From positions 4,030,001-4,094,000 of the forward strand of contig NZ_AP017422.1 in NCBI RefSeq assembly GCF_002355595.1: 64,000 nucleotides of DNA. The letters are read 5' to 3'. The position numbers and the translations under genes are program-made. The first letter of the stretch is position 1. Each line of letters opens with the position of its first letter. Positions 28,449 to 63,568 of this stretch are shown here, in pieces. This DNA is from Filimonas lacunae (GTDB taxonomy: Bacteria; Bacteroidota; Bacteroidia; Chitinophagales; Chitinophagaceae). Under the pieces are notes generated by a model. It was not told where the DNA came from. It searched no databases and saw only the letters and a list, made by a program, of their open reading frames with translations.

Positions 28449-29555
28449 ATGAGCCTTTTTAAAAACATCTTTAAAAACAAAGACACCGATACTCCACCTG
28501 TCCCCGTCCGTTCTTATGAAGATTTCTGGAACTGGTTTGCAGCCAATCAACAGGTATTCTATAACGTAGTAAAAGAACGCGGCGATATAAGAGCCGTGTT
28601 CTTTGCCCCGTTAAGTGAAAAACTGGATCAGCTAAAAGAAGGATATCATTTTCTTACGGGCATCAACAACGAAAATATTGCAGAGCTGATCTTTACCGCC
28701 GACGGCGTTGTTAAGAATGTAGTATTTGTAGAAGAACTGGTGCAGGCAGCCCCTGCAATGGAAAACTGGAAAATCATCTCACTAAAGCCAGCAGTAAAGA
28801 TTGAAGACACTGTTATTGACATGGATGGCTTTGCATTCAGCAGCAACAACATTCACTTCTATGCAAACGACACCCCCGCATGTCCCGATGAAATAGACAT
28901 CACCGTTGTTCACAACGATTTTACCCCTGAAAACAAAGATGCTATTGTAAACGGCACTTACATTTTCCTGGACAATTACCTGGGCGAGCTGGACTTTATC
29001 AATAACATCGACAGCCTTGCTATCATTGGCCCTGCTGATGCTACCCGGGATCTCATTCCCATCAGTAAACTGAAAGACTTTCTAATCTGGCGTCAGAAAG
29101 AGTTTGTAGAAAAATACGATGGCATCGCATACGATTCCGGCCAGGACAGCTTTTCTGTATTTGAAGCCAGCTTTGAAGATGGTGGCAAACTGTTTGCCCT
29201 GATAAATATGCACCTGCTAAGCTGGGAAGGGCAGGTATCGCACCCCTGGATGGCTATACTCATTATCAGGTTCGGAGCGGAGGGTGCATTTGGTCTTAGC
29301 GAAAACGACTATGCACTGCTAAACACCATAGAAGATGAAATAATGGCTGAAATTACCAGTGAAGATGGCATTGTAAACATAGGACGCCAAACCGTTTCCA
29401 ATGAAAGGGAAGTGTACTTTGCAGCTAAAGACTTCCGCAAAATATCCAAACTGCTTTATCATACTCAACTGAAATATGCCAGCAATTTCACTATCGGTTA
29501 CGACCTCTATAAAGACAAGTACTGGCAATCGATGAACAGGTATAAACAATCGTAA
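28449..29555 (+). CDS. Uncharacterised 368-residue cytosolic protein
   Basis: Not firmly recognised; the N-terminal part ('DFWNWFAANQQVFYNVVK', 'FAPLSEKLDQLKEGYHFLTG') recalls DUF695-type proteins, but I cannot confirm that. It is acidic and soluble, with no signal peptide. The last third ('AEITSEDGIVNIGRQTVSN') looks like the DUF695 ending. Single gene, ending at a strong bidirectional terminator. The upstream 'TATTTTTA' is one base off the -7 consensus. Confidence 0.7.
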   Translation: MSLFKNIFKNKDTDTPPVPVRSYEDFWNWFAANQQVFYNVVKERGDIRAVFFAPLSEKLDQLKEGYHFLTGINNENIAELIFTADGVVKNVVFVEELVQAAPAMENWKIISLKPAVKIEDTVIDMDGFAFSSNNIHFYANDTPACPDEIDITVVHNDFTPENKDAIVNGTYIFLDNYLGELDFINNIDSLAIIGPADATRDLIPISKLKDFLIWRQKEFVEKYDGIAYDSGQDSFSVFEASFEDGGKLFALINMHLLSWEGQVSHPWMAILIIRFGAEGAFGLSENDYALLNTIEDEIMAEITSEDGIVNIGRQTVSNEREVYFAAKDFRKISKLLYHTQLKYASNFTIGYDLYKDKYWQSMNRYKQS

Positions 29556-61255: not shown

Positions 61256-61403
61256 AGCCCGCTAAGATAGGTTTCTCATCCTAACAATGCAACACCAGCA
61301 CACGAAGCGATATTCGTGAAACGCTTGCTGCCAGTAGGTTGTTTACAAAGAGATGGTTATTTATTTACAGTAACTTCACATTCAAATAGTGTATATTACA
61401 ACA

Positions 61404-61871
61404 ATGAAGCGCATTATCACCTTATTAGCTTTTACCTGTTTGGGATTTATCATCCCTATGCCTTCCAGCAAGCTACAGCAGGCCCGTTGGATATTAGGTG
61501 TATGGCAACAAAAAGCCGGTAAACGCACCCAGATAGAAGAATGGAAACAAGCGGATGACAGCACCTTTACAGGCCGCAGTTATTTTTTAAAAGGAAAAGA
61601 CACCGTGTTGCTGGAGCAAACCACATTGGAATACCGCCACCAACAACTGTTCTATGTTCCCGTTGTACAAGGACAGAATAATGAACAACCTGTACGCTTC
61701 ACACTTACTGACATTCAAATTGGCAAACTGGTATTTGAAAATAAAGAACACGACTTCCCCCAAAAGATCACCTATCAAAGAATTACGCAGGATTCTGCAG
61801 TAGCAGAGATTGCAGGCATGTTAAAAGGAAGCTACCAGGCACGCCCCTTCCCTATGAAACGTATACAGTAA
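61404..61871 (+). CDS. Secreted DUF6265-like small protein
   Basis: A 155-residue exported protein, start at MKRIITLLA (signal peptide about 1-20). The mature part opens with 'ARWILGVWQQKAGKRTQIEEW', a motif of the DUF6265-type lipocalin-like family, and has 'LVFENKEHDFPQKITYQRI', which is characteristic. No function is established for the family. It is the gene immediately left of the periodic array, whose first units begin right after the stop codon. Confidence 0.78.
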   Translation: MKRIITLLAFTCLGFIIPMPSSKLQQARWILGVWQQKAGKRTQIEEWKQADDSTFTGRSYFLKGKDTVLLEQTTLEYRHQQLFYVPVVQGQNNEQPVRFTLTDIQIGKLVFENKEHDFPQKITYQRITQDSAVAEIAGMLKGSYQARPFPMKRIQ

Positions 61872-61879
61872 CAGCCTGC

Positions 61880-62698
61880 CGTAGCAAAAAAATGCAGATA
61901 CGCAGCATGCCATTGCACATCTGCAACAAATCACAGATCTTACTTCGCAAGAAATGATACATGTGCAGTGTACCACTGCACATTTGCACTATCCCGCTGC
62001 ATATGTGCCGAAAAACGCAGCACATATGCCCGGTTCCTGTTTCACCTTGCAACATAATAATGCACATCTGCAACAAAACAATTAAACAGTGCAGAAAACC
62101 CGTAAGATGTTGCAAGAAACATTTACCGATGTGCCTCATGCCCCTGTACATGTGCAGGAAGGCGATGTACCGTTTGCAAAATTGCCCCAAAACCTTACAT
62201 GCAACGCTGCACATGTGGCGCGCGACACTGCACATGTGCAACAATACGCGGAACATATTTTCCAAAAGATTACAGATGTACAATGGAACATTGCAGTTGT
62301 GCTTTATCTCACTGCAACTATGCAGCTGCACACGTCAAACATGCATTGGTACACGGTAAGTAGACAGCAACAAGCGGCAAACGTAAGGCATCCTGCAGCA
62401 ACTGTACAACGGCAGACTACAAACATATAATGGTATACTGCGGGTATGCAGCCATATGCATCAAACCTGCCATACCCTATAGCAAACAGACAATACAATG
62501 TTGCAAACAAGCAGTGTTATACAGCAAAAGCACCACACTTTACAGCAAGCTTATGTTACCGTGCAGCAAACAGGCAATAGCCCGTTGCAGGTATCCCGCA
62601 TCTTATTGTAAACAGCTCACATCATCCCCGCACTCTCCCCCGTTTTGGCTACAAGTACCCTCAATAAGGCTACAAACGCTCCGTACCCGTGGCTGAAC
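61880..62698. repeat. 819-bp array of 39 degenerate units with exact 21-bp period
   Basis: The sequence between the stop at 61871 and the next gene promoter is built on a strict 21-bp period. TGC recurs at 61964, 61985, 62006, 62027, 62048, 62069, 62090, 62111, 62132 and 62153 without a miss. Each unit is TGC, about 11 variable bases, then a 7-bp core. In the left half the core is near GCACATG, so core plus next TGC is the palindrome GCACATGTGC (best copy TGCACATGTGCA at 62229-62240). From about 62363 the core drifts to GCAAACA (for example units at 62468, 62489, 62552). It holds no gene. Because the period is a multiple of three, four frames stay open by chance. Function is unknown. Confidence 0.9.
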
Positions 62699-62725: not shown

Positions 62726-63568
62726 ATGGCACAACAACATGCAGGTAAAACCTGGTTTATTACGGGCGCTTCCCGTGGATTTGGACGCATATGGACAGAA
62801 GCAGCCTTGAAACGGGGTGATAAGGTTGCTGCTACCGCACGTAAACTGGAAAGCATTGCCGATTTTAAGGAAAAATATGGGGAGAATGTGCTTACACTGG
62901 AACTGGATGTTACCAAACCCGGCCAGGCAAAAGCAGCCGTAGAGCAGGCACATGCACATTTTGGCAAACTGGACATTGTACTCAACAATGCCGGCTACTC
63001 GCTGGTAGGTACTGTTGAAGAAGCCAGTGCAGACGATATCAGGCTACTCTATGAAACCAATGTTATTGGCCCTGTTGCGGTGATACAGGCTGCCCTGCCT
63101 TTACTGCGCCAGCAAGGCGGTGGACATATCATTGGCACCTCCAGCAACGTGGGGCATATCACCTACCCGGTAATTGGCTACTACTGCTCTTCTAAATGGG
63201 CTTTTGAAGCCATTCATGAAAGCTTGGCTGCAGAAGTAAAAGCCTTTGGCATTCACGTAAGCCTTATTGAACCAGGCGCTTATGCTACCGAATTTGGCAG
63301 CCAGGACTCCCTGAAGTTTACCCAAAACCTGGACCTGTATAACGACTTCAAAGCCAACTTCTTCACCCAGCTAAGAGGGCTGGAACGCGGCAATCCGAAC
63401 GCCACTACAGATGCTGTTTTTGCCCTGGTAGACGCAGCGGAACCTCCATTACGTTTTCACCTGGGCAAGCACAACCTGCCTACCGTACGCGCCGCTTATG
63501 CCGAGCGTTTAAAAACCTGGGAAGAATGGGATGCTATTTCCAGCGCTGCACAAGGCCAGGTGGAATAG
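62726..63568 (+). CDS. Short-chain dehydrogenase/reductase right of the array
   Basis: A 280-residue SDR. Cofactor motif 'FITGASRGFGRIWTEAAL' (about 12-29), 'VLNNAGYSLVGT', catalytic Ser in 'IIGTSSNVGH' and Y-x-x-x-K as 'YYCSSKWAFEA', with a long helical C-terminal part. It resembles the SDRs at 38202 and 58204. Its promoter element GAACTTTG (62695-62702) lies at the right edge of the 21-bp array, so the array lies directly upstream of its promoter. An AraC gene follows. The substrate is unknown. Confidence 0.9.
   Translation: MAQQHAGKTWFITGASRGFGRIWTEAALKRGDKVAATARKLESIADFKEKYGENVLTLELDVTKPGQAKAAVEQAHAHFGKLDIVLNNAGYSLVGTVEEASADDIRLLYETNVIGPVAVIQAALPLLRQQGGGHIIGTSSNVGHITYPVIGYYCSSKWAFEAIHESLAAEVKAFGIHVSLIEPGAYATEFGSQDSLKFTQNLDLYNDFKANFFTQLRGLERGNPNATTDAVFALVDAAEPPLRFHLGKHNLPTVRAAYAERLKTWEEWDAISSAAQGQVE

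Follow-up and report, generated by a model that had tools for sequence, protein, structure and literature searches.

Dispersed intergenic arrays with a constant 21-bp period and palindromic cores in Filimonas lacunae, possibly mobile platforms for a dimeric DNA-binding protein

An intergenic tandem array identified in Filimonas lacunae belongs to a class of repeats found across the genome, and the phenomenon extends beyond the single interval in which it was first noted. The array lies in a 64,000-nucleotide stretch of the chromosome (referred to as the window) and is made up of 35 repeat units, each 21 bp long (61880-62614, unstranded), with a strand-symmetric core TGCACATNTGCA, as defined by autocorrelation, row scores and reverse-complement symmetry. 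Members of this class keep their period, are strand-symmetric in most of the older cases, have no coding frame, are dispersed over the genome, have undergone in-register duplication and, in the family F3, share their ends. Our tentative reading, to which we give slightly less than an even chance, is that such an array is a non-coding, MITE-like mobile element, the body of which consists of tandem dyad half-sites placed two helical turns apart for an inferred dimeric DNA-binding protein. The element body would be about 270-840 bp long, and its tandem units of 21 (or 42) bp would each combine dyad-related half-sites, with the unit centres two helical turns apart. A dimeric protein, or a few relatives with differing sequence preference, would sit on each unit, and adjacent dimers would touch along one face of the helix; an indel of a length other than 21 bp would break the filament, and single-base changes would be tolerated. 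The likely outcome would be that a patch of nucleoprotein, compact or insulating, forms in the intergenic gap. The host may use this patch for chromosome structure or for the buffering of supercoiling or transcription; alternatively, the element itself may use it as recognition for its own spread. Among the roles put forward in an earlier note on this DNA, evenly phased protein-binding sites are the best supported, as predicted from sequence.

The self-identity of 61880-62698 was 0.464 at lag 21 (0.431 at lag 42 and 0.451 at lag 63) versus 0.261 ± 0.017 in 2000 first-order Markov resamples of the same interval, and the maximum reached by any resample at any lag of at least 5 was 0.336. This autocorrelation bears out the claim that a 21-bp period stands above shuffled controls. 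The only other run of period 21 above 0.36 in the window is weak (28743-29067; 0.362). The period is exact although neighbouring units agree at only about 46% of positions, and because of this low likeness Tandem Repeats Finder leaves the array unreported even with a score of 30, its lowest threshold. Row scores were calculated with a weight matrix trained on 61880-62590, so that scores inside the array are partly in-sample and rows beyond the training stretch are out-of-sample. They were positive throughout 61880-62614 except in the row that starts at 62174, and all rows starting at 62615 or later scored below zero. Because the scores turn negative there, the array measures 35 x 21 = 735 bp; of the 39 units up to 62698 counted previously, 35 stand, and the last four rows are the promoter region of the next gene, a short-chain dehydrogenase (SDR). 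The sole row inside the array without a unit match (62174-62194, unstranded; score -2.6) is the place of a supposed phase shift of 25 + 16 bp, which rests on this one bad row and is indistinguishable from a diverged unit. The ten successive rows starting with TGC (61964-62153) are present as described, and the palindromic core is real, with a reverse-complement symmetry that reaches the floor of the permutation test (the P <= 0.001 group).

The left neighbour of the array encodes a DUF6265 protein (61389-61871, plus strand), the stop codon of which lies 8 bp ahead of the array, and the right neighbour is the SDR gene (62726-63568, plus strand); both were assigned from the ORF list and Pfam. 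The window sequence 5' of the SDR gene, which is not part of the array, contains GGCTACAA twice at a distance of 21 bp (62647-62675, plus strand), within rows 62636-62698 that carry a terminal GGCTGAAC. A segment resembling 62636-62698, as judged by eye, lies ahead of the SDR gene's orthologue in the sister species G002 (78% identical), where the array is absent. This direct repeat before the SDR gene could be the site of a regulator. The best G002 match of the DUF6265 protein is 64% identical and has no array behind it. A role of the array as local regulator of the SDR gene is not supported, as arrays adjoin unrelated genes in every orientation. In an ORF-based classification, the gaps holding 16 F. 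lacunae arrays were tandem (9), convergent (5) or divergent (2), terminator-like hairpins abut several arrays, and the neighbours of arrays A2 and A4, both 479 aa long, are unrelated and not homologous. The presumed AraC half of an SDR/AraC pair is a 113-aa fragment at the window edge with no Pfam match.

A search of the 7.81-Mb F. lacunae chromosome for a pair of TGCACATNTGCA at 21 bp, allowing at most three mismatches, identified six places, near 995, 2349, 4091 (the window), 4251, 5204 and 5362 kb, and the reversed control pattern gave zero matches on this chromosome. All six are period-21 arrays and form one family, F1, with related weight matrices (z 6.5-9.3). Outside arrays, the F1 core had 17 near-matches in 1.2 Mb versus about 10 expected by our own arithmetic, and no regulon was visible there. 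The same core in this pattern was found in none of 58 relatives, two of which belong to the same genus; arrays with other motifs occur in G002.

The census of the F. lacunae genome covered 50 evenly placed stretches of 20 kb (1.0 Mb), with a threshold of 0.40 for periodic segments; a segment was considered non-ORF if less than half of it lay within ORFs of at least 150 aa. This analysis indicated 26 periodic segments of at least 0.40, of which 11 were less than half in such ORFs, and 8 of these 11 had a period of 21 or 42. The remaining three (L087, L072 and L077, with periods of 12, 24 and 30) are, by eye, genes with short ORFs, the products of which we take to be an acidic protein, a ribosomal L18-like protein and a Lys/Ala-rich histone-H1-like protein, respectively. 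Two further arrays of period 42 (L084 and L090) lie beneath ORFs of 184 and 207 aa, which we judge to be spurious, as they have no Pfam match and are strand-symmetric and, in L084, substitution is even over codon positions. The 21-bp segments L069 and L143 (0.403 in L143) are coding coiled coils and not arrays. All ten arrays judged non-coding in the 50 stretches, further to the six of F1, have a period of 21 or 42 with several unrelated motifs, CAGAAANNTTTCTG, TGAGNNCTCA, ACGGAANNTTCCGT and CATCCGTACGGATG among others, which argues for phased binding sites. The density of about one array per 100 kb translates into roughly 80 per genome (Poisson 95% about 37-144, own arithmetic). When ORFs of at least 150 aa were masked and the non-ORF sequence of the F. 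lacunae sample was pooled, lags 21, 84, 42 and 63 were the top four among lags 5-89, with a small excess (0.276-0.279 versus 0.264). One sampled array (L070, 13173-13760) contains, by eye, near-duplicate blocks of 294 bp (14 x 21). At L077 (15510-15770, minus strand), the 30-bp repeats encode a small Lys/Ala-rich protein, a candidate nucleoid protein.

To test strand symmetry, we compared the weight matrix of each array (21 or 42 bp) to the reverse complement of that matrix, with column permutations as the null; both lengths were used for arrays of period 42. Symmetry reached P <= 0.001 in 15 of the 25 arrays collected, including the window array, which argues for sites bound by a dimer, and P values of 0.005-0.044 were obtained for A10, B3, B4, C1 and C5. 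It was not significant in A9, B2, C2, C3 and C4, which counts against this reading. Three coding heptad stretches served as control and gave P values of 0.045, 0.054 and 0.69. As in phased dimer sites, the dyad symmetry recurs at a whole number of helical turns (period 21 or 42). Between units of the F1 arrays, mean direct identity was 0.39-0.43 and inverted identity 0.37-0.39, and in the other F. lacunae arrays these values were 0.38-0.45 (0.52 at distance 4) and 0.37-0.40; all were nearly flat with distance. In the older arrays, this combination of flatness and symmetry is that of sites drawn from one symmetric matrix, unlike that of a decaying repeat, and the near equality of inverted and direct identity again argues for binding sites. 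Inverted duplication within arrays was rejected as the source of symmetry, as the inverted identity of the F. lacunae arrays is independent of distance. In the four G002 arrays direct identity falls at the longest distance, from 0.63 to 0.37, which speaks against the binding interpretation; the inverted identity of these arrays drops at the longest distance as well. Intrinsic curvature was also discarded, since the 10.5-bp A+T harmonic beats column permutation (P < 0.05) in one of the 25 arrays.

The main competing explanation, which we regard as possible and worth roughly a one-third share of belief, is that the arrays are selfish or neutral minisatellites within MITEs, in which a 21-bp palindromic seed was amplified in register by slippage or unequal crossing-over, transposed and then left to decay, with no binding role. 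Single arrays contain in-register duplications with lengths of 84 bp, 294 bp and further multiples of 21 bp, seen by eye and as alignment gaps, which fit such an origin, and so do the dispersed copies and the young arrays of an uncultured Bacteroidetes MAG, in which units are 0.83-0.87 identical. Left unexplained by it are the period itself, as the families found are all of 21 bp and none of 18, 20, 22 or 24 bp, the strand symmetry, and a unit identity that stays almost flat at about 0.4 instead of decaying to about 0.26. The description of the window array as a diverged minisatellite can be kept for growth by in-register duplication, but free decay would lose phase, symmetry and flat identity.

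The constraint on spacing could be followed in a family of dispersed copies, F3. Array A14 has six copies in the F. lacunae genome, at 1730, 2104, 3256, 3551, 3671 and 4366 kb, and no copies were found in G001 (same genus) or G002 at E <= 0.001; the orthologous site of A14 in G002 was looked for and not located. All six copies have the tail ...GGTGGGAGAAATGGA in common and four of them a similar leader ending in CTTTCCCA; past leader and tail the flanks differ, with about 30 bp more in common between two copies. Six dispersed copies with shared ends point to a mobile binding array, and no transposase was tied to the elements. The ends are loosely inverted, by eye only, and a T-rich stretch that flanks some copies on both sides, also seen by eye, is indistinguishable from terminator T-runs.

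Pairwise comparison of the closest three F3 copies showed 75 and 99 substitutions inside the array for two pairs and 101, including leader and tail, for the third, and the divergence inside the array was 14-19%. The array indels amounted to two of 21 bp in one pair, one of 21 bp together with three adjoining aligner gaps summing to 21 in another, and zero in the remaining pair, and gaps of 2 bp and 1 bp in these close copies were confined to leader and tail. In a BLAST alignment of A14 with L145, a single gap of 21 bp was found across 583 aligned positions. As a control, orthologous spacers of F. lacunae and G002 were aligned. The 12 spacers shorter than 400 bp had 43 indels per 266 substitutions, from which 12-16 indels would be expected per F3 pair, and all 15 spacers had 56 indels per 542 substitutions (recount), from which 8-10 would be expected; multiples of 21 were absent from the control indels. 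More distant F3 copies have gaps of 42, 84 and 210 bp and also short gaps, some but not all of which add up to 21 bp. In two F3 comparisons that share one copy, 57 of 516 sites changed within the ten bases around the GTAC dyad versus 117 of 571 elsewhere (P 2e-5), so that change in the palindromic core is half as frequent as outside it. Substitutions were even over codon positions (35/35/34). These results show that both spacing and core of F3 are under constraint, and the indels of 21 bp only, the slower core and the even codon positions argue for binding sites. Neither the slower core nor the lack of other indels at this divergence is accounted for by a neutral minisatellite, which nevertheless stays a serious rival because the indel test comes from one family and the binding protein is hypothetical. 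The proposal that spacing outweighs sequence is strengthened by the F3 indels and by the unrelated motifs that keep a period of 21 or 42.

As 21 bp correspond to seven codons, and real heptad coding gives a 21-bp signal as well (L069 and L143), we considered whether the arrays encode heptad-repeat proteins. One stop-free frame is present in 4 of 18 arrays, and a few arrays have open frames of 175-214 aa. Across the 18 arrays there is no consistently open frame, five such array frames have no Pfam match, substitutions are even over codon positions in the one family analyzed, and the coding heptad stretches (n = 3) show little strand symmetry, unlike the arrays. The protein-coding pattern considered before does not appear, and we regard a coding origin as scarcely credible. 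A transcript carrying a series of small hairpins, as suggested in the earlier note, is improbable. Dyad cores, the start of the window array 8 bp past a stop codon and covarying half-sites in the F1 (TGCACAT) unit (z 3.9 over six arrays) and in B2 (z 3.5 and 3.9) would be in line with such an RNA. The fold z scores were -2.0 and -2.2 only (20 shuffles each), the sign of covariation for the best dyads of 18 arrays was inconsistent, giving no consistent compensatory pairing, Rfam had no match within the window array, and RNA hairpins need no exact 21-bp spacing.

Plasmid iterons and centromere-like arrays consist of sites for DNA-binding proteins repeated in tandem and in phase with the helix, and occur in few copies beside a rep or par gene. 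Unlike iterons, the arrays described here are many and dispersed over the chromosome, and a DNA search for plasmid relatives of the window array gave no match. Grouped intergenic palindromes, some in tandem and in both orientations, are a feature shared with REP/BIME elements, and movement by a RAYT (Y1) transposase would be conceivable, as the F. lacunae genome contains one Y1 transposase gene. This gene is also single in G001, where no array exceeded the threshold in 480 kb, and the family consensus units have, by eye, no common GTAG or CGTC tag. REPs are described as 20-40 bp long with a tag tetranucleotide and a variable spacing, 20-100 bp in most dimers (PMC3733652), unlike the fixed 21-bp phase and the untagged consensus units here. 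We consider this origin very improbable.

The nearest published element found is BrickBuilt of Porphyromonas gingivalis, a minisatellite within a MITE with a 23-nt unit (PMC4596501). BrickBuilt is one family with a tandem body, leader and tail, IS5-like terminal repeats and a mention of dyad symmetry, has 19 intergenic forms in one strain and is patchily present at one site in a related species (PMC4596501). The Bacteroidota host, the tandem body and the dispersed, intergenic, non-coding copies are alike, F3 may also resemble BrickBuilt in its leader and tail, and BrickBuilt is a precedent for minisatellites. The present arrays differ in their period (21 or 42 bp in all 25 arrays collected versus 23 nt), in having several unrelated motif families with one period and units that are about 40% identical with the phase kept, and in their strand symmetry and core constraint, and their ends are defined in F3 only. 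The novelty lies in several motif families with one fixed period. Among the titles and abstract openings retrieved by searches of the open-access PMC literature, none described 21-bp phased arrays, and the statement that no named element corresponds to the array holds for the exact thing in the literature searched, with BrickBuilt near in kind (PMC4596501).

In G002, which is of the same genus, three arrays (L096, L106 and L108) were found in 21 stretches, and a fourth (L136) came from a stretch picked for synteny. ORFs of 175 and 214 aa, which we judged spurious, cover more than half of two of these three arrays; the ORF-filtered scan gave L096 as the sole array, together with a segment of 15-bp period with an open frame (L102) and one of 12 bp (L099; 0.405) at a stretch end, which has no open frame and is unexplained. 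G001 had no non-coding array of period 21 or 42 above threshold in 24 stretches (480 kb), in which the F. lacunae density would predict 4.8 arrays (P about 0.008, own arithmetic). A 24-bp tandem array of G001 (L123, 17890-18230; score 0.90) is largely covered by an open frame of 200 aa. Thirteen stretches from ten further genomes of the family yielded no 21-bp array; the stretch L130 has arrays of 47 and 18 bp. With ORFs of at least 150 aa masked, lag 21 ranked first among the pooled lags of G001 (0.2735) and likewise of the other family stretches (0.2753), and with ORFs of at least 80 aa masked it was third in both. The pooled lag-21 signal is thus not specific for arrays, because it is also present in genomes in which no array was found, and the excess may come from short genes or from far weaker scattered repeats.

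Of four sites compared between F. lacunae and G002, one shares an array. At this site both species carry an array (A12 and B4) beside orthologous flanks; B4 is freshly homogenised and its matrix is related to that of A12 (z 8.6). A related motif at an orthologous site of two species is a further argument for binding sites. BLAST with B4 gave no match in the F. lacunae genome, though its motif relates to A12 and A13. The A8 site has no array in G002, A15 lies within a 5.1-kb segment that is absent from G002, and at the window (A1) site the gene order differs, the G002 matches of DUF6265 and SDR being on separate contigs and neither bordering an array; the absence of arrays from G002 at these three sites fits the minisatellite explanation. 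The F. lacunae stretch L135, which was expected by colinearity to match G002 array B3, has no array and was left uncounted as a colinearity-based site, and A7 was excluded as the best match of its neighbour was 52%.

Binding by a dimer as the favoured explanation has to accommodate several observations. A single sequence-specific protein cannot serve all arrays, since the family motifs differ. Also on the opposing side are the unseen F1 regulon, an indel test from one family, the short gaps of the more distant F3 copies, the BLAST null with B4 and the pooled lag-21 excess in array-free samples. A more far-reaching version, which we put forward as speculation and consider unlikely as a whole, is a bacterial satellite system of dozens of dispersed arrays, in which the palindromic code of each family would be read by its own dimeric protein and the common two-turn spacing would come from coating or wrapping proteins of one architecture. 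In Bacteroidota it would amount to a layer that resembles heterochromatin or organises the chromosome, spreads in the form of mobile elements and evolves together with the proteins that bind it. If dozens of arrays per genome are phased binding platforms, some Bacteroidota have a level of chromosome organisation that has gone unrecorded, and the principle of a fixed period with free sequence would be directly testable. If the arrays are merely selfish satellites, it is a puzzle why several unrelated families are all of 21 bp.

The MAG with young arrays (G059, L025) was met via the exact two-core pattern, which occurs at 24 loci in the genome contigs searched; only the L025 site lies inside a 21-bp array. 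The MAG contains five period-21 arrays at four places: L178 (1561-1817), L179 (1491-1766), L180 (1471-1730 and 2001-2150) and L181 (1464-1762). Four of them are one family, with the high unit identity given above, and the fifth belongs to another family with a GAAGTACTTC core. The larger family is young, and the MAG is unrelated to F. lacunae. By eye, TTGCA and TTTCG half-sites are mixed in one G059 array. Palindromes resembling TGCACATYTGCA, unequally spaced and in short clusters, were seen by eye in Mucilaginibacter (L017, L018, L019, L024, L033, L036 and L040) and in Chitinophaga (L032), and are possibly a related dispersed element.
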